This document shows, piece after piece, positions 614 through 64,000 of a stretch of 64,000 bases of DNA (the first letter of the stretch is position 1; each line of letters begins with the position of its first letter). Location of the stretch: positions 13,284,211-13,348,210 of the forward strand of contig CM075104.1 of assembly GCA_037576195.1 (NCBI GenBank). The letters are read 5' to 3'. Under the pieces are notes generated by a model, which saw only the letters and a program-made list of their open reading frames with translations, made no database searches and was not told the DNA's origin. A program made the position numbers and the translations under genes. This stretch comes from Phytoseiulus persimilis (lineage: Eukaryota; Arthropoda; Arachnida; Mesostigmata; Phytoseiidae).

Positions 614-2670
614 ATGTTGACGATCGCATTCGTGTTGGTGTTTGTTGGCCTTTCGTTCGAGTGGCTCCGTCAGCGATGGAGCAGGTTCCAGATTTTCAAG
701 CGGATGGGAGTTCCCGGCCCCAAGCCCAGTTTCCTCTGGGGTCACTTCAAGCAGCTTCGCGAGAACCATGTTCTGTGGCAACAGAGGTGGAGGGCCGAAT
801 ACGGTCAAACGTTCGGCGTGTTTTGGGGCGATAAACCATTCCTCATAACATGCGACCTCGAAATCGCGAAGCAGGTGATGGTCAGCCGCTTTTCGAACTT
901 CGTTGACCGCTCGGAACAATTTGCTCTCGAGAGTGCGCATCCTGTTGCTAAGCACATCATCACCATTGAAAAAGGTCAACGATGGAAGCGGAGTCGGATG
1001 CTCCTTAGCCCCGCTTTCTCAACTGGCAAGATGAAGAACATGACTCCACTCATTGAGAAGTGTGTCGACGAGTTCGGAGAGATCTTGCAAAAAAACGCGT
1101 CCGGGAACCAGTTCGACGTCTACCCCCTCCTGAAACGGTTCTCCATGGATAACATCTCACGCACAATTTTCGGAATCGAGACGAATATACAACAGAATCC
1201 AGAGAACAGCTCGAAGCTACTCAGATCCGCCTTGTCATTCATCGAGCTTAATCTCACCGGCTTCATGGATTTGCTCTGTAACAGCTTCTCGTCAATCAAC
1301 TACGGCTTCAGTTCGATTCTTTATATCCTCCTATCTGCCAGATTCATCCCAAACCCGGTCAATGATTTGGCTGATGAAATGAACGTGATCGTCAGAGCTC
1401 GACGGAGCGCGCCTCCACGGAATGATCTTCTGCAGTCTTTGCTGGATCGTCAACGTGAGTGTTTGCAGGAGGGGAATCCGACCGCAGCAATGCGAAAGTG
1501 TCAACCCAGGTGACGTTTCGAGAACGACCATCATAACATCCATCTCTCTCCACAGAACTGAACTCTGACGAGAACTTCCTGACGGCCAGCGATTCTGCAG
1601 AAGAGCACACGACGACTTCTCACACAACAACATCTTCCATGCTGACAGACGAAGAGGTGACCGCGAGTGCAATCGCCATGTTCGCCGCAGGATACGAGAC
1701 GACGAGTACTGCCGCTGCATTCGTCTTCAGCTGCCTCGGTTTGCACCCGGAAGTTCAGGCGCGACTCCGCCAGGAAATCCTTGATGCGGCAAACGACAAA
1801 CCGCTGCGCTACGAGACGATTATGACCCTGCCGTACCTCGATGCTGTTATCCGCGAATCTCTTCGACTTCATCCCCCGGTTACGAAGTAGGTTCCCCCTC
1901 TCGGCTCGGCGACCATGGCCCGGAACTTATGGAGTTTTCCTCGTCTCGAACTGCTCTCCCACACACTCAAGCCATCTCCTTCTCGTTACAGTTTCAATAC
2001 TCGCATAGCTGTTAAAGACACAGAGATCAACGGCTTGGAAATCCCGGCAGGACTGAGCATACTCTTCCCGGTGAAACTGATACACTCAGATGAGAACTTC
2101 TGGGAGAACCCCTCACTTTTCAACCCTGATCGCTTCTTGGAGAAGAATTATAACCCGTCGGCGTACCAGGTGGGTTTCGAACGGAGAACTCTTAGATTTA
2201 GAGAGAGGGAGAGGGTCTCACGAGGATGTTCGATCTCGATCGAATTTGCAACTGCCGACACGACGAACAGTCCAGGAGAGCTCAACGTTTCTGTGCGCCA
2301 TCGGAGATATAGCTGATGGCGAAAAGCTCAATCGCAGAACTCCGCAGGAAACCCGCTCCTCTGTTGCGCATGAAGTTGCCTGTGGCCCAGAGAGATCGAA
2401 ATTTCACGAAAAACGCTCTAAGATTCTATGGAGTGTGCACTTCGGCTCGATCCTCTCCGATTATAGTATCGCATCAAATTCCAGGCGTTCGGTGATGGTC
2501 CCAGGAACTGCGTTGGAATGAGATTCGCTTACCTTACCATCAAGACGCTCTTGTGCAAAACCCTTATACGCTTCAATATCGTCGCTACTGAGGAGCCTCG
2601 GATCAGGAATGTCAGTGTTCTGTCTCAACCTGTTCAACTGAATATTTCTGTTGAGGAGATCAGCTCCTGA
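614..2670 (+). CDS. Cytochrome P450, gene 1 of the array (four exons)
   Basis: Exons are 614-1454, 1556-1886, 1992-2169 and 2485-2670, with GT-AG introns in phases 1, 2 and 0, giving 511 residues. The start at 614 is chosen because it begins a hydrophobic microsomal anchor (residues 1-20, MLTIAFVLVFVGLSFEW) followed by the hinge GVPGPKP, and because gene 2 starts at the same place. All P450 landmarks are present: I-helix AGYETTS (about 325-331), ExxR as ESLR (381-384), NPDRF, and the heme loop FGDGPRNCVG with the axial Cys at about 459. The family uses NADPH and O2 to oxidise lipophilic substrates at the ER membrane. The overall style suggests the CYP3 clan, often linked to xenobiotic metabolism, but the substrate cannot be read from sequence. 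It is the closest relative of gene 2 in the window. Sure it is an intact P450; family assignment is inferred. Confidence 0.95.
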
Positions 2671-2735
2671 AGCATCCGCAGAGCTGCCGAAATCGAAACT
2701 ATGATCGGGGGAACTAGAGGAAACTCGCCTCGATC

Positions 2736-2960
2736 TCAACGTTCGGAAGTCATACGCATCTCACCCATTCCTATCGGATCAAATCTGAGGCCGATCATTG
2801 CTGGAAGCAATGCGTCTTCAAGTGCGTCATGCATCAACATTTTTTGGGAAAGTATTGGAATCGGCCGCGAACAACTGAGTCTGCCATCTTGATTAAGCAG
2901 GCGGAGAGCTTGGAGAATCATTTGAATTACTCTCGGAGGAATTTTCCGATTCTCGACCGT
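2736..2960 (-). pseudogene. Unidentified minus-strand coding-like segment behind P450 gene 1
   Basis: The minus strand carries an open frame ending at a stop at 2736. Its last ~75 residues look protein-like: a helical stretch near VIQMILQALRLL followed by ALLPAMIGLRFDPIGMG. A similar sequence, including the codons for MIGLRFD, lies at the matching place behind P450 gene 2 (minus strand, around 14.93-14.96 kb), where the frame is broken by stops. It may be the 3' end of a small convergent gene that was duplicated with the P450, or an old repeat. No family is recognised. Confidence 0.25.
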
Positions 2961-3424
2961 TAGACACACGGAGTCACGTGGGACACCCTGTCCAGAACAA
3001 CATGGAGCAGAAATATTCCAAATGACGCCTCCTACAACGGATCGGTGGTCATGAGGTTCTGTCTCCCGAAAAATTCTGAAATAATCATCGATGCCACTTC
3101 GACTGTGTGCAGATGATGCCAATGAAGGATTCCGGTGACGAATTTGGCTGGAATGTGCTGTCGGTCGAGATCCGGCGTTCTCATCCATCAGCTGATGACT
3201 AGAGCCCGCACTCTGAAGCAATATCCATCAGTCCTCCTAGGGATGCCCACAGGAGTCATTGGTTCATGGATGTATAGTGCTCCTAAGTCCGGTCTTCAAT
3301 GGAAACAATTGAGACGATACTCTGGCGGTAGGAACGCACATCGGGATCGGCTCCTACTTTTGGTTCTAGGAATGGCCACTGTATATCGCACAGAACAGCA
3401 ACTGCTATACAGGGTGATTCCAAT

Positions 3425-3615
3425 TAAATAAACTCTCGATTATCTTAATTCTCGACTCTCATGACTTTGATAATATCAACATCGATAGAATGAATTCTCG
3501 ATTACCATCTGCTCTCAACAATCTCCAATCCGATTGCATCAACTTCCGTTCATGTTAACTCTGAATCATGACAACTTTGATTGAACCAACCTCGACTACA
3601 TGAACTCCCGGTTTC
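3425..3615. repeat. Degenerate ~16-bp tandem array
   Basis: About ten to eleven imperfect units of roughly 15-24 bases, each opening with AAC or AAT. Many contain CTCGATTA or CTCGACT-like cores and ATG near the end (for example AACTCTCGATTATCTT, AATTCTCGACTCTCATG, AACCTCGACTACATG). The array is AT-rich compared with its surroundings. No mirrored partner was found nearby, so it may be a minisatellite or one surviving end of an element with repeat-built termini. Confidence 0.5.
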
Positions 3616-5871
3616 ACCTTGGATAAGGGATACACAAGATCGTCCTTTCGTGTGTCAGTTCGCTTGGCAATTACGCGGAGGAAGAGCTGAGGTTTGGATA
3701 GCTCAGGGGTCAAGGCCGCATCTTCGCTGCCGTCGAGGGGCTTTAGCGATGACGGCCTCATACCCGATGTCGATGAGAACTTTTGGGGTGCTTGAGTGGT
3801 AACATCATATAGAATTATCATAGCCCGTTCGACTCAGATTTCGCGGAGACCAGCTCCACCGATACGACTCATACTGATAAACAGTTGACAACCGGGGTAT
3901 AACGTACGAATGTAACGTTGGAAGGAGCGCTCACCATGGGAGGCGAGTACACCTCATGTCGCTCCGAACGGATGACGGTGAATTATTATTTTCCGTTAGA
4001 AAAATAACAGAGAGTACTTCCTGCGAGAAAGATAACGGAATAATGGATTTCCCTTGCGGTGACTTCCACTGGGAGCATTCCCGTTGCTTTCTCAGACGGA
4101 TTACCGTGAATTCACCTTCATTCGTTTAAGGGATAATGTGAATTATCAACCGTTATCCACTGAACGGGGAATGAGGTCTGTGCGCGAGTGGAGTGCTTGT
4201 ACAACGACATACATGCAGAATATTTCTCACTCGAAGTTGACCTGAAGCTTTGACCGATGTCTCCAGAGCCTGCTCGACCTCGAAATGAATGTGCCAGCCG
4301 CAGCACACAGGCTCTCCTAGTTCAGGCTTCCCGGCGAGCAATTGTGACGACGTTGAAAAGTTAGATCAGCCTTCGCAACCAAACCGAAAAATTGAGCGAG
4401 TAAATTCCCTTCCATGTTCGCCGAGAGTTCACCTGCCGTGACCAAATACGCAAACAAGATCATATATGTATGTTTGGCGCGGTCTGTCTGTCTGTCAATA
4501 GGAAGCTTGTCAGATTCAGCGAAAATCCACATGGATAAACTTCGCAGCCTCGGGTCGAGCTCACTCTGATTCGCAGAAAATGTGTTTCTGGGACCGAGCC
4601 AGAGCCCTTCCATCATTGAAAGTTGGAGTTCCAGGATCGGATAGGGTGTACCAATCCACAACGTGTACAGCGCTCCAAGGTCTAGCGCGGACGTATCCGC
4701 TTGTCGCCTGACGCTACTCTCCCGCCTGCGCTTCTCGTCGCCTCTGGCAGCGGTTAGCATGCATGATGGCTAAACTCCGCTGAGCCTGTCGGTAGGCGAA
4801 CCCTGGTGGCGCGTTGATGCTCGCTAGCTCAACTCGCCGGGCGCCAAACGAAATAGAACCGGAACTTCCAATAGATTGGATGGGAGGAAGAATAAGCACT
4901 TTGGAATGGGGTCCGTCACCACAAACCAGTTTTGTGGCCAACACAAAACCAAGAGGTACGGAGTTCTCTTTAGTCGAGTTTCAGAGGTTCCGCGGCACCT
5001 GCTTTTTTGGCGACATTTTATGTTTTGTCTCGTGGTTTCTACGCAGTTTAGAGCGAGATGCTGGTGACGCCAGGCACTCTGTGTCAGATGGACAACCTTC
5101 TGTATCACACCGAGCCAGCTCAGCTGCGGCGCCGCTGGAAAATTGGGGAGCCCTTTGAATTCGAGAGGAAAAAATCTGTCTGACTTCCCTAAAATGAGGA
5201 TTGGAATGGAACGAAGACCAAAAGAGGCGATTGGTGATTGGAAAGAAATCCGAAATCCGCCCTCTAAGCACCGAAAAACAGTCGGGACGAAAATGACGAG
5301 AGAAATTCCCGACCTGATTTTACCACCCTGTAGACTTTTCGGAGGTTCGAATGATGGGCGGGCCTGCCCTCTCATTGAAGAGAGTGCGATTCCCTTCCTG
5401 GGAACGGTGAATGCACATTGAAGGGATCCCGACCACCCGATCCCGCCTGGAAGGATCTGACTGGTTTCCGTGATGTCTTTATACGTTCGGAAGATCAGGA
5501 ACAAAAGCACTTCCCAATACAGCTTGAGAAGAGCAGTGCTCCCGCTTTTCCAGTCCCCAAATCTCGTTCCACCGGGACCTCCTCCTAAGTTGGGGCTCCA
5601 ACGACTTCGCTTCGGTCACAACAACGCATTGAGTTTTGCTCGGCGTCAAAGGCGCGGAACTCACTGAAAATCGCATTCGTGACGGGGTTGTTACGTTTTC
5701 TGTCAAGTTGGTTCGTAAACAATGAAACACGTTCCAGACTTCCGAACGGCCGGCAGTCCCCGGCGAGAAGACCTTTTTTTCGAGTCCCTTGAAACGGCCG
5801 GTTGTCGCGCTCCGTGGTAACAACGATGGAGAGCCGACTTCCAGAAGTCATAATTATTTATACTCGTCGCC

Positions 5872-9740: not shown

Positions 9741-9748
9741 CTCAGCAG
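9741..9748. repeat. 8-bp target-site duplication, left copy (CTCAGCAG)
   Basis: CTCAGCAG occurs immediately before the left end of the element at 9749 and again, identical, immediately after its right end (10616-10623). This is the footprint expected of a cut-and-paste transposon that duplicates 8 bp. Confidence 0.8.
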
Positions 9749-9875
9749 GGCGTAGCCTCAGATGCCAGAAACTCAGATGCCAGACTCTCAGATGCCAGAA
9801 ACTCAGATGCCAGAAACTCAGATGCCAGAATAAAACACTCCCCCGACTGCGGATGGGTCCCCGCTGATTCAGCGG
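9749..9875 (+). repeat. Left terminal inverted repeat of element A
   Basis: 127 bp. Five 15-bp units start at about 9757, 9772, 9787, 9802 and 9817. The second unit differs (AGACT for AGAAA). It ends with a near-palindrome at 9861-9875. Confidence 0.85.
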
Positions 9876-10488
9876 GTTATTGGAGGCCGCGAATGAAGTT
9901 AGGCAGAACCGGGGAGCTCGATGGGGAAAGCTACAGCTCCAAAGGTTCTAGCACAGGCTACCTCTGTTACCCTCCTTGGGCCAACAGGATCAGCTTGAGA
10001 ACCACCCCGGACATGTGATTATTGTCGATCGACGTGGAAAACTCAACGACGTCCTCATTGCGGGTCTCCGGACCCGCCTCAATCCTACACTCTCTCCGTC
10101 ACTGGCAGTGATGATTCGCTAGCGACGAGTAGAAAGGAAGGTAGTTCCTCCCATAACTCCGTGCATTGAGTGAGGAATCGCCGAGCTAGCGGCCCAAAAT
10201 CCAAGTTGAGGCCGAGCGAGCTTTCGGCGAAGGGGGCTGCGACCGCTCGGAATGCGCGAAGGATCGCTTTTCTATTTCCCCGGAGCTCGAGTCCCCGAAC
10301 GTCCACGCTGATCGAGATTGAAGACATGCATCGAATGTCCCATCCATTCATCATGATTCATTCGTTGCCATCATCAGCAAACCATCAATAAATCACAGGG
10401 GGTGCGGTGCAGCGTGTACCATATGTACAAAGGGTCTGCCGCATGACTCGCGCTCGTTGCAGACGTCGGAGACGCTTTGCTCCCAAAT

Positions 10489-10615
10489 CCGCTTAATTAG
10501 CGGGGATCTATCCGGGATCGGGAGAGGGTTTCATTCTGGCATCTGAGTTTCTGGCATCTGAGTTTCTGGCATCTGAGTTTCTGGCATCTGAGTTTCTGGC
10601 ATCTGAGGCATAACC
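10489..10615 (-). repeat. Right terminal inverted repeat of element A
   Basis: 127 bp, the inverted partner of 9749-9875. It has five copies of the complementary unit (core CTGGCATCTG at 10535, 10550, 10565, 10580 and 10595) and an inner palindrome at 10489-10503. The unit copies in this arm are more uniform than those in the left arm. Confidence 0.85.
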
Positions 10616-10623
10616 CTCAGCAG
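10616..10623. repeat. 8-bp target-site duplication, right copy (CTCAGCAG)
   Basis: Identical to 9741-9748 and directly abutting the right end of element A. Confidence 0.8.
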
Positions 10624-12492
10624 AACAGTCGGAGAGACTCGGGATGATATCTTTGAAGGCGGATATCCAGAGCTCACGGCGCTCGAATCCAGCAGTGTTT
10701 CCCGAATAGCGTATCACCTGGTGAATTCCATGATTCTGAAGAGGGAACTGGAGGTCGCGATCCCCCCCCGCCATTTCTTAAAGTTCAACCATTTCAGTCA
10801 TTCCTCGGCTGACCAACTCGAGATTCATCGATTCTGCGACGGCATCCGCGCATTTCGCCGACTCCATGATTTCTCCTCGCCTCCTGTAAGCGGAGTTATC
10901 GGCGACCGAGCTTGGAAGAGCAGACCTTTCGTAATCGCTCGATAGAATCTTCGCTTCCCTACGCGCAGACTCGGCATAATTTCTTTCGTTGGATCTTGAC
11001 AGAGGGAGAAATCACGGTTCAAAGACCTGGCGTTGTGTTCGCTTTCCGGAGCCGCTCAAACAAGTCTCCTAGAGAGTCAGCGAATCCAGAACTTCGAGCA
11101 TCTCCGAGTCTACAGAAGCTTCCCGAGACGCTGATTCGATTACTTCGTATGCACATCCCTCTACAACTGAGCGTATCTGAGCGAGGAAGGACGTTGTTCT
11201 TCTGGGCCAGAGCTCTGTAGCCAGGAGTGGTCCCTCTCTTTCTCTGCAGTGTCATCCAACCGCTTTCCATCCTCTGTCAGGACTCTGAGCGAGAGGAGAA
11301 GCATATTCAATCGCTCCGTGCGGTGTTCTGCCTGGAAAACCCTACATCTCAATGATCCCTGCCGCTGACTTCGAGCTGAAGACCGACTTCAAGGACTCAT
11401 TCGCTCCACTCCTACTAATCTTCTCCATCCAGGGAATTTCCGGGGTCTGAACCGGTATAGTATGACGATGGAATGGGAGAAGGGAATGAGGGCGGTGGGA
11501 AGACACCGCCGGTAAGCCAATCTCGACCTAGATCCGCGTCTCACCCGGAGCGGAACGATAGCGCTTTCGCTCTCCATGATTCGATTCGCTTCGGAAATTC
11601 TCGAGGAGGTGGACATGTGAGCGCTCGGAGATGGTAGCATCCTCCTCCTTACAATATCCTCCCTGATTGAGATCTATCCTCCAATGGACGGGTAGCATGT
11701 CTCTCGACCGAAGAAGAAATAGTATTCCGCTCCCCGTGTTCTGGTGGGGACGTATTCAAGGAAACTCCTTCTCCAGAGAGGATACCGCGAGAAGGTCTGT
11801 CCTGGGATGGCCAACGACCCGTGGAGAGCGCCTCTAGACAGTTGAGAACCTGGTCAGCCGGTTGCTCAGAAATCTTTGCGAGCCCTCAGGTGACGGAGGT
11901 ACACGGACCATTTCCGAGGACAGCTTGAAAAAGCAGTCTCCCCGCGCCCCTCCACTCGGAATTCCGTTTACCGTTGCAAATCGGGATGGTGAGGCCGAAC
12001 GGGGCACGTCAGGAATGTGAACACTCACTCTGAAGGAAACCGTGAATTTCATGACCAATAGTTGTCGAACACTCTGATTCCCTTACCCAATACCCTCTCT
12101 CATCCCACATGCCGTTTGGACTTCTTGCGGGTGCGTCCGTTGCGAGCGAGATCCACTGACCATCGAAGACAGCTCATCGCTCGAATCGTCCAACTCATAC
12201 GATTTCAGCTGGATTCAGTTCATCTGAATCGATTGCGGATACATTTGTGTGCGCGGAAAATCTCGTTCCACCGGGTATTGGATACTTGTCGCGGAGTCGC
12301 GTGAAAATCGAGAGCCTGTCCATTCGGGTTCTTCAATCAACTTCCGGGAGAGGGAACTCCTGTTTGACCTTCGTCGCTGTCCAGAATCGCCAAAGTCGGA
12401 AGCCATCTCATTAGAACGAGCTGAGGGCTCCAACGGCGTCGCCTCTGCTGCACCGGTCCGACGAGTTGCGCTCCCCGTCAGAAGTGGGAAAC
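10624..12492. other. Intergenic DNA and 5' flank of P450 gene 2
   Basis: No gene is supported. The last ~140 bases (from about 12352) resemble the flank of P450 gene 1, with shared GGGAACTCC, CCAGAATCG and CGAGTTGCG blocks, and probably contain conserved 5' UTR or promoter sequence. Confidence 0.45.
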
Positions 12493-14356
12493 ATGTTTAC
12501 AATAACATTCGTGTTGGTGTTTGTTGCCCTTTCATTCGAGTGGCTGCGTCAGCGATGGAGCAGGTTCCAGGTTTTCAAACGGATGGGAGTTCCCGGCCCC
12601 AAGCCCAGTTTTCTTTGGGGTCACTTCAAGCAGCTTCGCGAGGATCATGTTCTGTGGCAGCAGAGATGGAGGGCCGAATACGGTCGAACGTTCGGCGTGT
12701 TTTGGGGCGATAAACCATTCCTCATAACATGCGACCTCGAGATCGCGAAGCAGGTGCTGATAAGCCGCTTTTCCAACTTCGTTGACCGTTCGGAACAGTT
12801 TGCTCTCGAAAGCGCGCACCCCGTTGCCAAGCACATGGTCACCATTGAGAAAGGTCAGCGGTGGAAACGGAGCCGGATGCTCCTCAGCCCCGCGTTCTCT
12901 GCTGGGAAGATGAAGAACATGATGCCACTCATTGAGAAATGCATCGACGAATTCCAGGAGAATTTGCGCAAAAATGCGTCCGAAAAACAGTTTGATGTTT
13001 ATCCACTCCTCAAACGGTTCTCCGTGGACAACATCTCACGCATCATTTTCGGAATCGAGACTAACGTCCAACAAGAACCCGAGAGCAACTCAAAACTCCT
13101 GAGATCCGCCCTCCTTTTCGTCGAAATGAATTTAAGCGGCTCGATGGATCTGATTTGCAACAGCTTTTCATCGATCAACACCTTTTTCAGCTCGATACTT
13201 TTTGTTCTACTCTATGCCAGAATCATACCGAACTCGATCAACGATTTGGCCGATGAAGTGAGCTCTATAGTGAAAGCTCGACGAGCCGCGCCTCCGAGAA
13301 ACGATCTCATGCAGTCTCTACTCGACCGTCAACGTTAGTTCTCGTATACGACACAGACGCCGCAGAGCACCGAGAAGAGCGGGATTGACTGAGTTGTTCT
13401 CTCTTCTTTCAGAAATCAACTCAGATGAAAAGTCGTTAGCGGCGAGCGATTCAGCAGAAGATCAGAAAACCTCTTCCGCGACAACACAATCTGACATGCT
13501 GACCGACGAAGAAGTCATCGCGGCCGCGATTATAATGTTTGCCGCAGGCTTCGAGACAACGAGTACCGCCGCTGCATTCATCCTCAACTGTCTCGGCTTG
13601 CACCAGGAAGTTCAGACGCGCCTCCGCCAAGATGTCATCGAAGCGACCAACGGAAAACCGCTCTGCTACGAGACAGCCATGACCCTGCCGTATCTCGACG
13701 CGGTAATACGCGAAGCGCTTCGGCTTCATCCTCCTGTAACAGAGTAGGTTCCTCCTTTTGTTGCCCAAGTAAAATCTAAACTTCTTGGAGGCTCTCACAC
13801 TCCGAAAATGAATGCTTGCCGCCGCAGATTCATCACTCGCACAGCTAAGCGAGACATAGAGATCAATGGATTGGAGATCCCGGCGGGAATGAGCGTCCTC
13901 TTCCCCACGAAACTAATACACTCAGACGAAAAGTTGTGGGAAAATCCATCACTTTTCAACCCTGATCGCTTCCTAGAGAAGAACTACAATCCGCTAGCCT
14001 ACCAGGTGAGGATCGAATCAGAAAATTCTGTGTTTCGTCTTGGGAGGGGGTGACCCAATGGGGGGTCTGATTCTCGATGAAGAAGTTTTCAAGGAGCGAC
14101 TTCCAAGGTAGCAACAATCCGACAGAGAGTATAATTTTCCTCTCCATTTCGCATTCGGTTCGAATTCCAGGCGTTCGGTGACGGCCCGAGGAACTGCGTG
14201 GGGATGAGATTCGCAAACCTCACTCTCAAAATGCTCCTGTGCAAATTACTCCTACGCTTCGAAATCGTCGCCACTGAGAAACCTCGACTCAGGACCGTCA
14301 GTGTGGTGTCTCAACCTGTTCAGCTGAACATCTCCGTCAAGGAGATCAGTCCCTGA
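12493..14356 (+). CDS. Cytochrome P450, gene 2 of the array (four exons)
   Basis: Exons are 12493-13333, 13413-13743, 13828-14005 and 14171-14356, giving 511 residues. Every exon has exactly the length found in gene 1, and the intron phases are the same (1, 2, 0). ATG 12493 opens the membrane anchor MFTITFVLVFVALSFEW. An in-frame upstream ATG at 12466 is disfavoured because it would put charged residues before the anchor and is not shared with gene 1. Landmarks are GVPGPKP, AGFETTS, EALR (ExxR), NPDRF and FGDGPRNCVG with Cys 459. It is a paralogue of gene 1 from tandem duplication, and both keep a complete catalytic core. Expected to be an ER monooxygenase of the CYP3-clan type; the substrate is unknown. 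Introns are short (79, 84 and 165 bp). Confidence 0.95.
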
Positions 14357-15150: not shown

Positions 15151-15158
15151 GTGTGAGC
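15151..15158. repeat. 8-bp target-site duplication, left copy (GTGTGAGC)
   Basis: GTGTGAGC immediately precedes the left end of element B (15159) and is repeated exactly right after its right end (15576-15583). Confidence 0.8.
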
Positions 15159-15280
15159 GGTTACAGGCCGGGAGCTCGAGAACCCGGGAGCTCGAAAACC
15201 CAGGAGCTCGGAAAAAAAAACCGGGAGCTCGAAACCCCTCTCCCTAAAATTAGGTTCCGTTCGATCCCAACGGACCTTCT
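15159..15280 (+). repeat. Left terminal inverted repeat of element B
   Basis: About 122 bp. It has four 16-bp-type units, the third extended by a run of nine A bases, then unique inverted sequence to ACCTTCT. Confidence 0.75.
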
Positions 15281-15457
15281 ATGCAGACCCTTCGAGTTCC
15301 CGAATAGGACAGCGAACATACTAGGAGGGACATCCAAGCGGATTTGGATACCGATTGTATCTTGATCTCCCTGGGTCGCACTGGGAGATATGTGTGGTAC
15401 CAATCGCGAAAACCTCGAGATACTCTTTTCTCGTATCAGCTTCTCCACTCTCCACCC

Positions 15458-15575
15458 AGAAGGTTCGTTGTGTTCGAATCGGACCCGATTTGGGGAAGTT
15501 TTCGAGATGCCGGGTTTTCGAGCTCCCTGGATTTTTTTTCCAGCTGCCGGGTTTTCGAGCTCCCGGTTGCACACC
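15458..15575 (-). repeat. Right terminal inverted repeat of element B
   Basis: About 118 bp, the inverted partner of 15159-15280. The A-run (T-run on the plus strand, near 15532-15540) sits in the second unit from the end rather than the third, so the units have shuffled or slipped since the arms were identical. Confidence 0.75.
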
Positions 15576-15583
15576 GTGTGAGC
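15576..15583. repeat. 8-bp target-site duplication, right copy (GTGTGAGC)
   Basis: Identical to 15151-15158 and abutting the right end of element B. Confidence 0.8.
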
Positions 15584-16135
15584 CCCTTCGAACTCCGAAG
15601 TCTGAAACAAGCTCCCCTCCCCGTTTACATTTGAAACTCCCGATCTGAACGAGAAGTGTCATGACTCATGAGTGATCCCTCGGTGATGAAAGATCGTTCT
15701 TGTCGAGACCTGAGAACTTCGCAAGATCCAAGTCTAGCTCGTCGTGCGTTTTTCCGTACCCCGGATGGTCCGGCATGACACTTTCTTCTCGGACGCACAT
15801 CTGAAGCAGTCTCATGGCTTCCGTTGGAAACTTTACGACAGAGACTTCACCACAAAACCAGTCGCAAAACCCAAGTGAGCGTGAATCGGCCCCGGCGGGA
15901 CTAATGATTGGTTCACAGATGATAGAGTCGGAAGATTCGGAAGATTCGGAAACTCATTAGTTCGCTGATGGAGATATTGAGTGAGTGAAAGTAGATCATC
16001 ATTGAGCACGACTCGGGGCAAGGGGGCGCGATTCCTCGCTTGTTTTCGGTGACTTCTGCGTGCCCAGATTCTGGGACAGCAGATAGAGTCCGCTCTGTAC
16101 GTCGACGAGCAACCTCACCGTTCTGCTAGTTTGCA
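15584..16135. other. Spacer and 5' flank of P450 gene 3
   Basis: No gene is seen. A small GGAAGATTC tandem lies near 15930-15950. The promoter of P450 gene 3 should be here, but no core element could be assigned. Confidence 0.35.
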
Positions 16136-18027
16136 ATGCTGTCCGTAACTTTGGTCGTGTTCGCGGCGGCTTTTACCGTGGAGCTCCTGCGTCGTCGCTG
16201 GAAGAGGCTGCAGTTTTTCAAAGTCCGTGGAATACCCGGACCGAGACCTCACTTGCTGTGGGGCCACTACCGCGAGCTGAGTTCGGACCACTTCAACTGG
16301 ATCAACCAGTGGAGCGAAGAATTCGGCGGAACGTTCGGCGTGTTCTGGGGAGATAAACCTTTCCTCGTCACCCGTGATTTGGATGTCGCCAAGGAAGTTC
16401 TCATCAAGCAGTTCCCCAAATTCACCAACCGGGGGAAGCAGTTCGCCCTAGAAGATGTGCACCCTCTGGTTCTGTTTGCTTTCGCAGACGAGCCGATATG
16501 GAAACCACTGCGGAGCGCTTTGACCCCTGGATTTTCCTCGAGGAAGATAAAAGAGATGACACCGCTGATCCTGAAGAGTGTCGAAGGCTTGGAAGCGAAT
16601 TTGAGGAGATGCTCTTCGGAGAACGAGGCCTTCGACATCTATCCGCTGTTGAGGAGGTTCACCGTGGACAACATCGGTCGCACCGTTTTCGGAATCAACG
16701 CGAACACCCAGGCCGAGCCGGAGGTCTCCACTCCGCTCCTGAAAGCCGCACTGCACGCGGTTGCATCCTTCATGGGTGGCTTCATGGATTTGTTGTGCAA
16801 CAGCTTCACGTTCGTCAATCAGATATTCGGCGTTCTCCTCCGTTTTCTTCTGCAGCGGCGCATTTTGACCCACGCGTTGAGCGACTTGGAGGTTGAGATG
16901 AAGAAAGTGATCGAGGCCCGGCAGAACTCTGCACCGCGGAGGGACATGCTCCAATCGCTCCTCGAGTCCCAAGGTAATGAATCCCGGAACGGGGAAATTT
17001 CGTTCCTCGTCCTCGGCGGGAACCCGAGATCGCTTGATTATATCGAAATCCGCGGTGTCAAGCCGGTGTTTTGTTTCAATCGCAGAGGTGAGCACCGACA
17101 CCAGCGCCCTAGCTGCCCGGGGGGACGTCGAGGACGAGAAAAAGTCATCTAAAACTGTAGCCGTACAGCTCACCACGGAAGAGATCGTCGGCAGTTCCAT
17201 AACGCTGTTCTTGGCGGGTTACGAGACAACAAGCACTGCACTCGGACTTATCTTCCATTGTCTCGGGAAATACCCCGACGTGCAGCGACGTCTACGAGAG
17301 GAAATTGAAGAGGCACTCGAGGGCGGTGGAGAGCCTACTTACGAAGTTGCTATGAACCTGAAATACATGGATCGAGTCGTCCGGGAAACGATGAGGCTCC
17401 TTCCGCCTGTTACAGGGTACACAGCTCTTGGCATGTTTCACGAGGGATTTGCTAATCGTTCAGCCGGGATTCGCTGCGGAGGCCCGAGATGCGAGAACTT
17501 GAGGCTTTGAAAGCATCTCAGATCGACGCCTTCAGAGGCTCGGAGTTTCGAATCTCGATGTTCAACGCCTTCCTCTCTGCAGATTCACAACGAGGAGGAC
17601 TCTGACCGATGTGGAAGTTTGTGGGACCAAGTATCCAGCCGGGCTCGCGTTCTATTTCCCCACAAAACAGATCCACACCGCCCCCGAATACTGGAATGCT
17701 CCCTTGACATTCGATCCGGACCGATTCCTAAAACCTCTGAAACATCCGCTGGCTTATCAGGTATCCCGCCGACCCACGCATTATTTCTGTTCCGGCTAGT
17801 TGGGTTTGTGCGGGTCGTTCATCGGGATATTCTCGTTTCAGCCTTTCGGTGATGGTCCGAGAAACTGCATCGGCATGAGGCCGGCCCTGCTCTTCATAAA
17901 ACTGGCGCTCTGTAAGATCGTTCCGAAGTTCCAGTTCAGGAGTACGGAAGATCCCAAGTTCAAGGGAGTGATGATTGTTTGTCAACCAAATCGGCTCATG
18001 GTCACTACCAGGATCATAACCAAGTGA
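16136..18027 (+). CDS. Cytochrome P450, gene 3 of the array (four exons)
   Basis: Exons are 16136-16973, 17086-17416, 17583-17760 and 17842-18027, giving 510 residues. Exons 2, 3 and 4 have the same lengths as in genes 1 and 2, and exon 1 is one codon shorter. ATG 16136 starts the anchor MLSVTLVVFAAAFTVELL, followed by GIPGPRP. Landmarks are AGYETTS in the I-helix, ETMR (ExxR), FDPDRF, and FGDGPRNCIG with the axial Cys at about 458. The protein is clearly more distant from genes 1 and 2 than they are from each other, so it represents the older duplication. Expected role is an NADPH-dependent monooxygenase on the ER face; the substrate is unknown. Confidence 0.95.
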
Positions 18028-38338: not shown

Positions 38339-41300
38339 TTATAGAAACTTGTAGGCCGGTTCGCGACTCTGTTCCCCTTCAGGTTTCCATGTCCGTGGGG
38401 TGCAGACTTCGGGACCGGCCCACCACGCGTGGATGTCGGGATAAACCTTGCGCGGAATGTCATCGTGCAGCATCGCGCACAGTCTACAGAAAAAATACGT
38501 GTTTATCATCTCGCCTCTCCGACGACTCCGTAAGTAGCTCTCCCAGAGCTCTCGGTCGGCGGAAACTTTCTTGAGGAACTGCGCCAACTCCTTGGTGGAC
38601 CGGAAATCGTCGACGTGGATGAACGAGTTGGTGGGCGAGGACCTAGCATATTCGCTCTTGCGAGCGCCCATCGCTATCGGAACAATGCTGTGGTTGAGGC
38701 CGTTGACGAAGAATTTCTCAGTGATATAGTCTTTGCAGTTTGAGTTTTCGAACGCCAGGTAGAACTTGTAGGTTGTGTCGAGCATTTCGAAACAGTTGCG
38801 GTTGTAACGCGGGCACTTCTTCTGGCTGCACGCGCCGAACACGTCGACATCAATGTAGGCGCTGAGCTTGCGCGCGAACTGCAGGCGGCCGTTGCGTGCG
38901 TTGCAGTTTGAAACAAACCAAGCGACGTTCTTGGTTCTCTTCTCGAAATTGGTTGCCTCCTCTAGTGGGGGGTCCTCCGTGACGTCCGGGAACGGGACCC
39001 ATTTCTCGTAAGGGGCCACGATGTCGCTGTCATGTCGGTAGGTTGCCGTCCAGTTGAACACGGGGCCTAGGTCCCGGAATCCCGGCGTGTGCATGGGGCA
39101 CTCCAGCAAATAGAGGATATAAACTTGGTCGGGTCGCCTTTTGCCAGTGGGAGCCAAATACCTGTCGAACGAAAGAGAAGGCCAAATGAGCGAGGAAAAC
39201 CTCAAAGAATCTGTCGCGGCGGCTTTCCAGGTGGCGGACGTCAAAATCAGGAGAACCAAATGTCATTAGGGGAGGAATTCGAGAACAAAGGACTGTGCAA
39301 GCTGGTCGGAATTCGCGCGGGGAGGCGGTCGGATTCCGCTGAGGCCGCTTCCACTTTAATTAAAAGAAAAAGGACGTTTGACCGACGGGGGATATCGTTC
39401 AAAGCGCCCGCATGAACATCCGCAGCAGCAGACGCTCCATACCAACCTGTCCTTAAAAATGAGCGCGTCCGCTTGCTCGTGGTCATTTGTGATCGAGCAT
39501 CTATTCACGGGACAGTTGTCCCGGAGGAAAATATCCTGCCCAAGAGGGATGGAGCCCCAGGCGGCTTGTCTCAAGTAAATTTTTTTCAGCGGGCCTGACG
39601 TGTTGAGAGGCATGAACATCAATTGTTCGACGATCCGATCGCTGTCCGGGTCTTCATGGGGCCACAAGTTTCCTGTAATAGAAATTCAGACTTGAGTTTT
39701 TATGCAGGGCTCCGCTAGTTCCTCGTACGCTCTGTTCCCGATGCCCGCTTGTCGACTTAGACCCCGAATTCATAATTCCATGGTTCGGCCTCTAGCTAGG
39801 ATCAGCAAGCCCGGCCAAGCTTCGATCAATGTTTGTTCAGCTTCGGTAGCTTAGAATGTTGACCGCAAACCTGGAACATCAACATGACTGGGCAGCTCTG
39901 AACTGAATGCTTCAGAAACCGAATTTGAAATGCTCGGTTCAGAACGAGGATCAGATGAAGGAGTGATGAAATGCTTCGAACAGATGGTTTCCACGAAGCT
40001 CAAGGCGGTTTCGCGCGGTTATATTAGGTAAGTCAAAAAGTTCGTAGCGTTTTTGATCCGACATTTTTGAAATTCCCGCGCTCCGCACAAGAGCCGCCTA
40101 CTACAGTGGTTGTTCGTTTACGTTCTTAGGCGGGCTCTAGAGTTCCTACCGGTGTATCGTTTCAGACTTTATCGTCGAGTTCGTAAAATCAGGAAGAATT
40201 TGCGATGGAGGACCAAAAGCAGCATTTTCGACACATAATGTTGTTCTGCTACCGCGAAGGCTTGAATGCAGTGAAGACCACTCGAAGAATATCTGCAGTT
40301 TACGGGGAGAATGCTCTTCAAAGTTCTACGGTTAGAAAGTGGTTTACCCGTTTCAAGGCTGAAAACTTTAATCTTGAAGATGAGCCCAGATCAGGACGAC
40401 CACAAGTTGTGGAACCCGATGAAATCATTAGCCTGGTAACTTCAAACCCCGGCCTGACCATCAAAGAAATTGAAGACTCGACGGGAGTTTCTCATGGAAC
40501 CGTTTGGAATCGCCTCCATCAAGCTGGCTTCTCAAACAAGAGGAATATCTGGCTGCCTCATGACCTCACCGATCGCCAGCTCGAAAGACGTGTGGATACA
40601 AGCCACACTCTTCTCCGGAAGAATGCCAATGAACCATTTCTGAAGAGACTGATAACCGGCGATGAAAAGTGGATACTCTACAGGAACGCTACGCAAAGAA
40701 AAAGCTGGGTCCCCAAAGGTTCACGGGCCGCAGCCGTCCCCAAACCCGAAATTCATCAAAAAAAAGTGATGCTGAGCTGTTGGTGGGACTGCAAGGGCGT
40801 TGTGTTTTTCGAGCTGCTCCCGCCGGGTCAGACCATCACCACCGAAGTCTACTGCAGGCAGCTTGAGGATTTGAAGACCGCAGTAGCAACAAAGCGCCCA
40901 GAATTGGCGAACAGATGGGGCGTCGTTTTTCAACATGATAATGCGAGACCCCACGTAAGTTTGCGCTCTCGGCAGAAATTGGCGGAGTTTGACTGGGATG
41001 TGCTGCCACACCCAGCTTATAGTCCCGACCTTGCACCGTCAGACTATCACTTGTTCCGGTCTCTTCAAAACTCTCTTGATGGAGAAATATTCGAATCTTT
41101 GGAGGGTATAAAAAATCACCTCAATCAGTTTTTTGGAAAGAAGGAAACCAAGTTCTGGGAGTAGGGAATCTTCGATTTACCTGACCGATGGGCGAAGGTC
41201 ATAGAACAAAACGGCCAATATATCATTCAATAAAAAGACTCTTGTGTACAGGAATTCGGCTCTTGAAAAATAGGTAAAAAACGCTACGAACTTTTTGACT

Positions 41301-60600: not shown

Positions 60601-61719
60601 TTATCACAATATCCACGTTTTATCAGGAGCGCCAGTTACACACGCAGACGTTAAATCTCTAGCCGTATTCCTCGAAGCCATGTGTCCATCGTGACTCTAT
60701 TAGTGGGTCCTTCGATCAAACCACGAGTGCACGCAATCGACAACGAAAAATTTCGAAATAGAATCATGGCGAGAATGGATAACAAATGTGTGCGCCGAGC
60801 GCAGATCCGCCGGATTTCCAGACTGACGACGGTACAACTTCACTGTTCCGGGCCAGACCGTAGAATTCGTAAGGAGAATGAAGAGTTGTGCTCAACGGTG
60901 TCGATGTGACCATCGCGATGATGCTCTCCAGACCCGCGCAGAAACACCTCGTCAGAAAGCCACTGACAACCAGTGGCCTAGCCAGGATATTCCCTGGGGA
61001 AAGGAAAAAATTTCTTTCCGTCCGCCAACCTACGACGCGTTCTGAAAACCCTGAAGAAACCTTTCCTTCATCTTCTGCCTAACCATTCATAGAGAATCTA
61101 TGAAGTCTATCCATTTATGGAGTCCAACGAGAGCGGTAGGATCGCCTTGTCAACAACAACAGGAGGGCTTACGTGAGCTCAGAAGCCAGACGTGGAGGTT
61201 CTCGTCCCTCCTGTAATTCCGGAAAGATTGTCTCCATTTGTCATCTCCACCATCTCAAATCACACCAGCCGTCCTCATTGGGTCAGCATCATTTTCAAAA
61301 CTATCTTCGGCTCATCGGCACATGTTGTCAGTTTTCTGTGAAGCAGTTTACTTTATACAGATCAAATTTTCTCACTGGAACCGAGGAATATCGCCGTAGA
61401 CTGAAAAATGTATTTGGCTCTCTCTGGAGTCCCTCTCGTTGGTTCTGCTCCATCCACATCGATATGACATTGAAGCGCTTCAGCTCGTGTTGTGGTTTGC
61501 ACTTCAGCTCCTCGAAGTCGGCGTTGAATCCTTCCTCCGGATGTTTCTGAAGCCCTTCTCATGGATTGCGTATTAGCTCTTTGAATCTGACTCTGAACTG
61601 CTTCTTGTCCCGTAGACGGTCCTCCACGCTCTCGTGGACGCTCGAGGACGGCCTTTTGGATTCTCGAAGACGGTCTCATAGACACTCGTATACGTCAAGT
61701 CTTACCAATAGACCTCAAA

Positions 61720-61809
61720 GAGTATTGTCAGATCGACGCCATGATCAACTCCATAGACCCTGGGGAGTATGGGCAGATCGACCGCGGAGGCAACTCCGTA
61801 GACGATCCC
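61720..61809 (+). repeat. Two tandem copies of a 45-bp unit
   Basis: Copies at 61720-61764 and 61765-61809 share GAGTAT, CAGATCGAC, CAACTCC and TAGAC at the same offsets. On the plus strand they encode 15-residue repeats (EYCQIDAMINSIDPG and EYGQIDRGGNSVDDP) in one open frame ending at a TGA near 61824. The similar spacing and the 3-base periodicity suggest a coding origin, but no gene is recognised. Confidence 0.5.
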
Positions 61810-62292
61810 GAAATCACCTCCTGAGACTGCGCAAAGCATCGAAAGATCGACGTCAAACAAACTGACAGATGAAGCCGATCATATATAGTAAGGCTGGTGA
61901 GGATATTGTTGGTTCCGAAAGGCTAGATTCCTTTCGGAGGTTCTGAGGGAGGGAGGAGGGGGGGGCGAAACCTGCTCAGCCCGCCCCCCAGCTACGCCAC
62001 TGCTAGCAACATCTGAGTGTCCAAGAGCGAATTCTGAGGGGATATTGCTCCGTGAAAAAGGTCCCGTAGCGTTCCCAGCAGGAAGAAGCGTTCAATTTCT
62101 CGCCCGACGAACGCGCTAAGCAGGCGCGATTTCATTCCGCCAGGGAAGAATCCGACTGCCAGACTCCTCCCTGCCGGTTGCCTTCTATTCGGCGATTCTC
62201 ACGAAAACTCTCGTGGCGAGTTCGGCAGCTGAGCCATCCTATGCAGGACATCAACCCATTATTCCAATAACATCGGTGAATGGCTCTGTGAT

Positions 62293-62312
62293 GGAGAGAG
62301 AGAGAGAGAGAG
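62293..62312. repeat. (GA)n microsatellite
   Basis: About ten GA units. Simple repeat. Confidence 0.9.
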
Positions 62313-62639
62313 CTTCGGCACTCGGAGGCTACGGCAAACCAAATTTACTCCACTCGACGCTCAAAAGATGGTGTCTTCCCGTTTCCCCGAACCCGTTGAA
62401 CCGAAACCGTTTCCCCCACCAGAAACCTTCTCCTGATTCCGAGACCTTCCGAGCAGAAGTGGTCTCTATGCAGAGCGCGAAGTCCGAGAAAGCGGACTTC
62501 AAGGGAAGAGAGTCATGTTGAGGATTTCCCGCTGTGCAATCTGATGGATTTTGCGTAGAGGAACACAGTCGCATATCCCGCTATCTCCTAGCCTAGAATA
62601 AATCTTCCAAGATTGGCCCAATATCACAATAACTTACAT

Positions 62640-63500
62640 CAGGGGTTGGCAACCTGGTGCGACCCGCGGGCCGCATAATCTGGTTCGCGGGCCGCGGGGC
62701 AAAAGACCATCGCGACCGTTCATACTCACGGGCCGTTACAGAGAACGTATATCAGCGAGCTAGAACTGTTCATGGGCCTTATGACATGTCTAAAAAGAGT
62801 GACATCAGGCAAAGATGAGGTCCCGAACTCGGGAACTGTTTCCTTGGCGAGAATAAGGGATCTGAGCTCCACAAATATCACAACTCGTCGATTTGATGAA
62901 CGAAAAATGAACACTCGATCCACTCGTCTGCTTCTCGTTCGTCTTCAATAGCTGTTTCGGGGATGGCGTGGGAGCGAACAATCGGTGACCACAATCGGGA
63001 GGTTCCAGCCTGAATTGAAAGAGAACTTTCCCTTCGTGGAGTTCGGAGCAAAACCAACCTGCTTGATTTGTGAGGAAAGCCTGCCCGTCTACAAGGAACA
63101 CAATCTGGGGAGGGGGGCACTTCGGAAGCGCCCAACAAGGTGAGGTGTTCCTCGGAGGATGGAAAAAATTCGACAGAATTGAGGCTCTGAAGAGTGCTCG
63201 CCACAGGTCGTTTCTGATGAAGCATCGAAGCGAGCTATTTAAGTGCCCAAGAAGTTGCATCTGCTGGTCGTCCTCTCCCGGAAAGCGATTTCATCAAAGA
63301 GTGACACATAATCGCAGCGAACCAAATCTGACCTGAGTCCACCGAAAAGTTCACTGATTTGAGCTTTTCAGAAGAATCATAACTAGAAGAACCGGTGACA
63401 TCGCGAAGAATATCGCGGAGCAGCTCAGCCGCGCGGTGGATGACATCGAAGCTGGGAGATACTGCCAAATATTACTCGCCACGCTCCAGCACCGTCATTC
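62640..63500 (+). mobile_element. Decayed hAT (Charlie-like) DNA transposon, left part
   Basis: The left end at 62640 reads CAGGGGTTGGCAACCTGGTG, followed by GACCCGCGGGCCGC blocks, the classic terminal sequence of Charlie-type hAT elements. Downstream, pieces of a transposase can be read in changing frames. There is a start-like MSKKSDIRQR near 62789, then a BED-type region with FVEFGAKPTCLICEESL (about 63036-63084), then a charged linker in another frame (about 63119-63280). After that comes ITRRTGDIAKNIAEQL (about 63375-63425), which in this family precedes the first catalytic Asp. Stops and frameshifts separate them. No right terminus was found before the window end, so the element is truncated or continues beyond it. 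Confidence 0.75.
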
Positions 63501-64000
63501 ATGAAGCCGACCGTTAGCGTCTATGGTCGGCCGACTTCGCATTTCTTCCCGATTTCTCAGCGTTATTCGTCTCGAATCTCGACTCCGTACTTTACATAGA
63601 AGCTCCATGCACTAGGAGGGTCTCGGGCTCATTAGAGGGTTTCTGGTCGGGGAACGGGCTGTAACCCAAGAGATACGTAGAGGCCAATCGCGAGGGACAC
63701 GCCGATAGAATCCAGGAGCCCCTCCGTGACGCAATCATTGATTCGCGATCGCATTGGTTCTGAATTATGACTGCCACCGCGTTTCTCAGCTCACCACAGC
63801 AACTGATTGCACAGCCATCCAGCTCTCGCACTTTCTTCATCGCGTTCTCTCTCCCTTCGTCTCCCGTTCTTCGGAATGCTGTGGATTATCAAGACACGTC
63901 GGACTCCTCGAGTGACAATAATTCAGAAACTAGGTGTTTCCCCGGTCTCAATCTACTCTACGTGGACTCCAGCAGAATTTCGGCTTTCCAACTCGATTAG
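63501..64000. other. Window end, nothing assigned
   Basis: It may include more of the hAT element or flanking DNA. A plus-strand frame (63767 to the end) and a minus-strand frame (63840-63592) overlap. Neither is recognised. Confidence 0.3.

Follow-up and report, generated by a model that had tools for sequence, protein, structure and literature searches.

To which class of mobile DNA does a short element belong whose inverted arms are built from tandem 15-bp units, and by what enzyme is it moved? The question is posed by an 867-bp element within a 64-kb stretch of the Phytoseiulus persimilis genome (contig CM075104.1; here termed the window), at window positions 9749-10615. The first letters of the element are GG and the last are CC, and it is bracketed by a perfect 8-bp target duplication, CTCAGCAG (Table 1); both features had been claimed in an earlier, sequence-only reading of the locus and are plainly legible. 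That reading also assigned the element two arms of exactly 127 bp. The inverted arms are real and come close to that length; they measure 124 nt (9755-9878 and 10486-10609) with 90% complementarity, and the outermost 7 bp of the element, GGCGTAG at one end and GGTTATG at the other, do not form an inverted repeat.

From the outside inwards, each arm consists of a 7-bp tip, five 15-bp units, a spacer and an interrupted palindrome, CCGCTN5AGCGG. The mirror-oriented units and the palindrome that closes each arm on its inner side, likewise described before, were both recovered. The window contains exactly 10 copies of the 13-bp unit core, CTCAGATGCCAGA, every one of them within the arms of the element; with up to two mismatches, 13 matches are found in the window against 1.93 expected, and the maximum over 100 shuffles was 6. 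The palindrome lies at the inner edge of both arms (9861 and 10489), with one additional window match at 33520. Its five central bases are variable among the arms compared, and its start lies 44 bp past the start of the last unit in all six arms considered, namely two each from the window copy and the long relatives L072 and L069.

Table 1. Features of the 867-bp element (window positions) and of three long relatives with an open transposase frame (assembly positions).
Feature	Position	Strand	Basis or remark
Left 8-bp target duplication CTCAGCAG	9741-9748	.	sequence reading
Left tip GGCGTAG (L-type)	9749-9755	+	common to five 4.3-4.7 kb elements
Left-arm 15-bp units, five, core CTCAGATGCCAGA	9757-9830 (starts 9757, 9772, 9787, 9802, 9817)	+	5/5 cores exact
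Left inner dyad CCGCTGATTCAGCGG	9861-9875	.	fixed 44-bp spacing, 6/6 arms
Interior without transposase	9876-10488	.	right part ~81% identical to autonomous element; 9905-10170 without match there
Right inner dyad CCGCTTAATTAGCGG (plus-strand reading)	10489-10503	.	sequence reading
Right-arm 15-bp units, five, mirror orientation	10534-10607	-	5/5 cores exact
Right tip, inward reading GGTTATG (R-type)	10609-10615	-	common to five long elements
Right 8-bp target duplication CTCAGCAG	10616-10623	.	sequence reading
L071	C4:10366782-10371081		both tips, 8-bp duplication ACCGGCCC
L072	C3:33306894-33311208		both tips, 8-bp duplication TGCCCCTA
L073	C4:5722572-5726886		both tips, 8-bp duplication GTCTCGAG

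The host assembly that was searched comprises 181 Mb in 127 contigs, the four copy-richest of which are 28 to 55 Mb in length. In the genome, at least 41 matches are 759 bp or longer, the window copy among them, which leaves no fewer than 40 further related copies; both figures are minima, as 40 of 168 candidates were scored. Exact matches to the terminal pattern GGNNNNGCCTCAGATGCCAGA number 175 in the genome, against 0 for its reversed control. When three mismatches are permitted the same pattern yields 1274 matches against 512 for the control, and is therefore too loose for copy counting. The search for same-ended copies that the sequence-only reading had proposed was thus productive, and these copies end alike with 8-bp duplications of their own. 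Among 30 short loci inspected, 29 possess two exact tips, and the remaining one, L017, is a nested arrangement without them. An exact 8-bp duplication flanks 26 of the 29 complete short copies, with 26 octamers that differ from one another; L025 and L030 have no duplication, and the repeats of L034 agree in 7 of 8 letters. The five long elements described below are also flanked by exact duplications, and all 31 are 8 bp in length. Together, the 31 octamers display a weak palindromic preference, approximately GYYNNRRC, that was equalled in structure by 3 of 2000 random flank draws (7 of 2000 when unsymmetrised).

Empty sites were sought with six of 26 joined sites, the window's own among them. 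The joined flanks of L022 match five places elsewhere at 86-88% identity, straight across the junction. The L037 copy lies inside a 45-bp minisatellite and interrupts one of its units at ATCTGAGC, which is duplicated on both sides of the element and is single and uninterrupted in 20 of the 28 neighbouring unit matches displayed. Both of these empty sites, which concern insertions other than that of the window, carry the single target copy that was to be expected of an unoccupied allele. Besides L022, four joined sites, that of the window insertion among them, found only their own two flanks in the assembly. Those of L020 gave two partial matches, one of which (81%) extends 3 bases beyond the junction, and this locus was left uncounted as an empty site. 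Several of the 867-bp copies are identical and median pairwise divergences are 0.8-1.7% (gaps left out), which points to a recent spread of the short element. Although adjacent or nested copies occur (C2:16355955-16357685, C3:20912727-20914089), a spread by segmental duplication or as a satellite instead of by transposition has practically no chance of being correct, given the sharp ends, the differing 8-bp duplications at the checked sites, the empty sites and the flanks, which differ between copies where they were inspected beyond the tips.

The probable enzyme is indicated by longer elements that share these ends. Among the 100 ends listed of the 175 exact ones, 37 convergent pairs can be formed, of which 35 span 411-990 bp and two span 4320 and 4726 bp. 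The long elements L070 (4320 bp) and L069 (4726 bp) contain broken transposase frames with a MULE domain. As a protein query, this transposase located three places in the genome, each with an open frame of 464 aa and 99% identity, which are L071 (4300 bp), L072 and L073 (4315 bp each). All five share with the window copy the tips, the 15-bp units, the inner palindrome and the 8-bp duplication. L072 and L073 have 0 mismatches over 4315 bp, and L071 differs from either by 1 mismatch and 15 gap columns, equivalent to one 15-bp unit. With open MULE and FLYWCH frames between the same ends, L071, L072 and L073 represent autonomous relatives of the sort that the sequence-only reading had proposed to look for.

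In a Pfam scan, the 464-aa frame of L071 matches MULE (PF10551, E=3.3e-11), and an upstream frame of 67 aa (L071:3455-3655, minus strand) matches FLYWCH (PF04500, E=2.3e-8); the latter frame is uninterrupted, and the call is thus independent of the predicted splice join. MULE domain matches were also found in the fragments of L069 and L070 and, by genome search, in L072 and L073. A predicted 624-bp GT-AG intron joins the FLYWCH and MULE frames, from ATG to stop, into a protein of 478 aa in L071, L072 and L073, for which both the intron and the start codon are predictions. By motif inspection, this protein contains a predicted DDE triad (D198, D264, E389), a C-H motif at 285-286 (H286) and a tryptophan (W374) between the second aspartate and the glutamate. 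Compared by spacing rather than by alignment, this set is close to D214, D283, H307, W401 and E419, residues tested in Muta1 (PMC5225508). In L069 an aspartate replaces the predicted catalytic glutamate. A PDB search with the 464-aa frame returned no match at E up to 1, and a comparison of the 478-aa protein with the 867-bp element gave nothing significant (best E=0.12 over 19 aa).

Because long elements with the same ends encode a FLYWCH and MULE transposase, the 867-bp element is assigned to the non-autonomous Mutator-like elements. Very probably, it is a MITE-like element in a Mutator-like (MULE) family of the Phantom/Muta type known from animals, moved by cut and paste with an 8-bp duplication through the helper transposase of its 4.3-kb relatives. 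Several features of the family agree with this placement. A MULE domain lies between the same ends in all five long elements, and the duplication, 8 bp in 26 of 29 short and five of five long copies, falls within the 8-11 bp range stated for MULEs (PMC6446971). The arms, at 124 nt, exceed the 100 bp given for the long terminal inverted repeats (TIRs) of MULEs, and they contain the subterminal tandem repeats that are reported from 10 of 12 long-TIR Muta families, where they are common and not obligatory (PMC5225508). The N-terminal FLYWCH domain of the Phantom/Muta type is present, joined to the MULE frame by the predicted splice. By its structure the short element is a MITE, as it is 867 bp in length, lacks a transposase, exists in many similar copies and bears the ends of an autonomous family. 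Of the affinities offered in the sequence-only reading, the Mutator-like one thus holds; Foldback-like is apt as a description of the arms only, and nothing points to Galileo. The family is new and well preserved, but it belongs to a known kind of element and does not constitute a new kind. A literature search by text, not by sequence, retrieved no published description recognised as this family, a faint indication that it is unpublished.

The alternative that the element is a MITE from a different superfamily that makes 8-bp duplications (Merlin/IS1595, hAT or P/Galileo), with arms that merely resemble those of MULEs, is very improbable. Merlin was the first suspect, since GG ends and 8-bp duplications would fit that superfamily as well and the genome contains 33 matches to its transposase domain (PF12762, IS1595-type). 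It was abandoned since the same-ended long copies encode MULE, and none of the 33 matches lies between the ends of the five long elements. Tandem-unit arms are characteristic of Galileo (PMC3573991), yet all five long elements carry MULE coding sequence, together with FLYWCH in L071, and P-type transposase is absent from the frames of L069, L070 and L071, for which Pfam scans gave MULE and FLYWCH as the sole significant matches. The end motifs that characterise hAT and P elements were not seen at the element's ends. The Mutator-like assignment has its own points of friction, which are the three of 29 copies without an exact duplication, the nested L017, an interior of only ~81% identity over its right part and 266 bp without a match in the long copies; in view of the last two, the working helper could be another relative.

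These last two points concern the origin of the short element. Relative to the autonomous copy, element bases 9-156 are 88% identical to the left end and bases 423-859 80% identical to the right end, with 254 of 314 positions identical over the comparable interior, and bases 157-422 (266 bp; window 9905-10170) have no match there. On account of this interior divergence and of the 266 bp without a counterpart, L071, L072 and L073 are not its direct parent. The short element would rather descend from a related element by internal deletion together with the gain of sequence from another source. L074 and L075, relatives at 87-88% protein identity, were considered as parents and rejected: L074 has no convincing end, L075 retains a single, old arm of roughly two units, and the 266-bp piece has no match in either. 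When the genome was searched with this piece, 40 places were scored of 109 candidates, and the 39 that were compared with known arms and ends of the family all lie beside one, the fortieth place being C3:16006225. Thus, no captured host gene is identified in the 266 bp.

Further elements of this general design are found in the window and beyond. A second Foldback-like short element, probably also of MULE type, occupies window positions 15159-15575 (417 bp), with arms of 16-bp units, CCGGGAGCTCGAAAAC, and a duplication, GTGTGAGC, at 15151-15158 and 15576-15583. Its end pattern has 122 genome matches against 9 for the control, and at C4:1391306-1395362 a 4.06-kb pair of ends of this family, identified by pattern match, spans two MULE matches. 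A single arm of a third such family is located at 62370-62460, with the tip GGTGTCTT and a 14-bp unit, CCCGTTTCCCCGAA, and resembles the arm of L076; no partner for it was found in 61300-63600. Additionally, the window contains a mariner-type transposase frame of 325 uninterrupted aa (40187-41161, plus strand; Transposase_1 and Mos1 HTH). Among 10 frames scanned of 81 long ones are cytochrome P450 frames (PF00067) on the plus strand at 134-1510, 12415-13335 and 16130-17149, and the 867-bp element lies between two of them, ~1.8 kb upstream of that at 12415. At least 147 MULE domain matches exceed the Pfam cut-off genome-wide (150 of 220 candidates scored), some of them with equal scores and equally long frames, such as five at 55.8 bits that each have a 585-aa frame. 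With these and the 33 IS1595-type matches, the host genome is rich in recent DNA transposons.

In the arrays of 15-bp units, cores are exact in 24 of 24 cases (10/10 in the window copy, 14/14 in L072), and the inner arm parts of the same two elements are identical at 47 of 55 aligned positions on the left and 40 of 57 on the right (70-85%). It is this equality of cores between diverged elements that suggests selection on the unit, since uniformity within one array could come from exchange alone. Exact cores beside drifted arms accordingly lend some support to the view that the units may serve as multiple binding sites of the transposase. Alternatively, the units could be by-products of slippage that unequal exchange keeps uniform. 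Their number is indeed labile: the 29 complete short copies have 3 to 8 per arm (with 2 mismatches allowed in the counting) and the five long elements 5 to 10. Also, L078, of another MULE family (element 1209-4580, duplication CTCTACAA), has 125-nt inverted arms, 85% alike, in which no array of 14-16 bp was found. Moreover, relatedness in the unit and in the protein do not simply track one another, as L077, a MULE relative with 52% protein identity, has a 15-bp unit of about CTCANATGCCAGAAT (L077:1290-1367), close to that of the studied family, and the closer relative L076 (63%) has a different unit of 14 bp. Uniformity within arrays, however, leaves the 24 exact cores unexplained, given that the adjoining arm sequence of the two elements differs by 15-30%, and two other families keep arrays whose periods, 14 and 16 bp, are similar. 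The by-product explanation is therefore considered unlikely, and the units are here treated as candidate binding sites.

The point of greatest interest is the difference between the two tips. All 37 convergent pairs (from the 100 listed of 175 exact ends) combine one GGCGTA-type with one GGTTAT-type tip, in exact letters in 34 pairs and with one or two variant tips in 3. In a tally of the same 100 ends, by a pattern with four unspecified tip positions, GGCGTA was counted 44 times and GGTTAT 45 times. The invariance of tips among the 29 complete short copies is meaningless, since these were chosen by exact 16-base tips. Similar-looking pairs occur in other families. L076 (element 663-3524, duplication GTTCAGAG) has the tips GGTGTCCT and GGTTACAG; the end pattern of its family has 137 genome matches against 5 for the control, of which no letters are readable for pairing. 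The tips of the second window family are GGTTACAG and GGTGTGCA, and are unlike in 12 of 12 readable pairs (34 rows with letters). The published tips of Tm1, an element of root-knot nematodes, are CGGTTAA at one end and CCTACCC (inward GGGTAGG) at the other (PMC3169594), and this pair, too, looks like the GGCGTAG and GGTTATG pair.

It may be that the tips are functionless in their difference and that every copy simply inherits those of one founder, an explanation that stands only somewhat short of an even chance. The 37 pairs are for the most part formed by near-identical short copies and thus not independent, and a founder effect does account for much of the tip constancy within them. Furthermore, the GGTTA tip is situated 5' of the transposase gene in the studied family and 3' in L076, and the tips of L078, GGGAGGCG and GGGTGTAG, are of another look, although L078 is set beside the studied family by its ends and not by its transposase. 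Against a founder effect as the whole cause, the same pair is kept in the long elements despite ~19% interior difference, and comparable pairs are present in L076, the second window family and Tm1 (PMC3169594). A broader and more tentative proposal, which we think has a minor share of the probability, is that animal FLYWCH-type Mutator elements possess two chemically different ends, one GGTTA-type and one GGYGT-type, that are kept across families (perhaps from the present host to nematodes, cf. the A1 and A2 tips of Tm1), while the tandem units change from family to family. If so, the tips would act as a catalytic signal that is conserved and specific to each end, the units would give every family its own address, and the transposase would join only a left with a right end. 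The reversed gene side of GGTTA in L076 and the different pair of L078 argue against this proposal, as does Muta1, which is described with one palindromic terminal motif (PMC5225508).

Under the Mutator-like assignment, the long copies would supply the predicted 478-aa transposase, the FLYWCH finger of which may recognise the 15-bp units (3 to 10 per arm), with the DDE core presumably cleaving at the GG tips and the unlike tips perhaps conferring different roles on the two ends. Integration would then duplicate 8 bp of the target. The short element, having kept the cis parts needed, would be mobilised in trans by the transposase of the long copies. Being young and sharply delimited, with both short and long members present in one assembly, this MULE family offers good material for testing Foldback-like arms. 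As the ten unit cores are identical, the unit number varies and the tips differ, the need for unit number and for the tip difference is open to direct assay, and with at least two further families bearing unit arrays of their own, along with the at least 147 MULE domain matches, the history of unit and transposase could be traced.

Among known systems, Galileo and Foldback of Drosophila share the long, internally repetitive inverted arms, and Tetris is titled a Foldback transposon; however, the transposase of Galileo groups it with the P element, whereas the studied family encodes a MULE transposase (PMC3573991, PMC4079207). The Phantom group of MULEs (group 20, which includes the Muta elements) is characterised by FLYWCH in some members, duplications of 8-10 bp, TIRs of 18-613 bp and hosts that include arthropods (PMC6446971). 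The studied family resembles it in FLYWCH, duplication size, TIR and arthropod host, a placement made by features and not by a tree.

The closest published designs are Muta1 and Muta5 of Aedes aegypti and Tm1 of root-knot nematodes. Muta1 and Muta5 are reported as MULEs with 8-9 bp duplications and TIRs of 145 and 151 bp, respectively, composed of a short terminal motif and nine subterminal tandem repeats of 12 bp (Muta1) or 15 bp (Muta5). Their transposase combines FLYWCH with DDE and is encoded by two exons in Muta1, which is classed as a type 2 Foldback element; derivatives number >300 for Muta1 and >200 for Muta5, often with variable unit number (PMC5225508). The likeness to the studied family, judged by design, extends to the terminal motif with tandem-unit TIRs, the FLYWCH and DDE enzyme and the variable unit number. 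Unlike the Muta elements as described, the present family carries a dyad where each arm meets the interior and exact duplications that are always 8 bp, and it has two unlike tips where the terminal motif of Muta1 is a 10-bp imperfect palindrome (PMC5225508). Tm1, a Mutator/Foldback element, is described with composite TIRs of asymmetric 7-bp tips (A1 and A2), 1-9 units of ~14 bp and an inner motif, and with MITE-like as well as transposase-coding members, the latter for a 496-aa protein of the Phantom subclass with FLYWCH and MULE (PMC3169594). The studied family parallels it in the unlike 7-bp tips, tandem units, inner motif, short and coding members, and domain pair. It differs in its unit and inner motif and in its duplications, which in Tm1 are 8-10 bp and mostly 9 bp. 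Moreover, Tm1 is portrayed as inactive and senescent, with no two copies identical (PMC3169594), whereas the family studied here retains identical copies.
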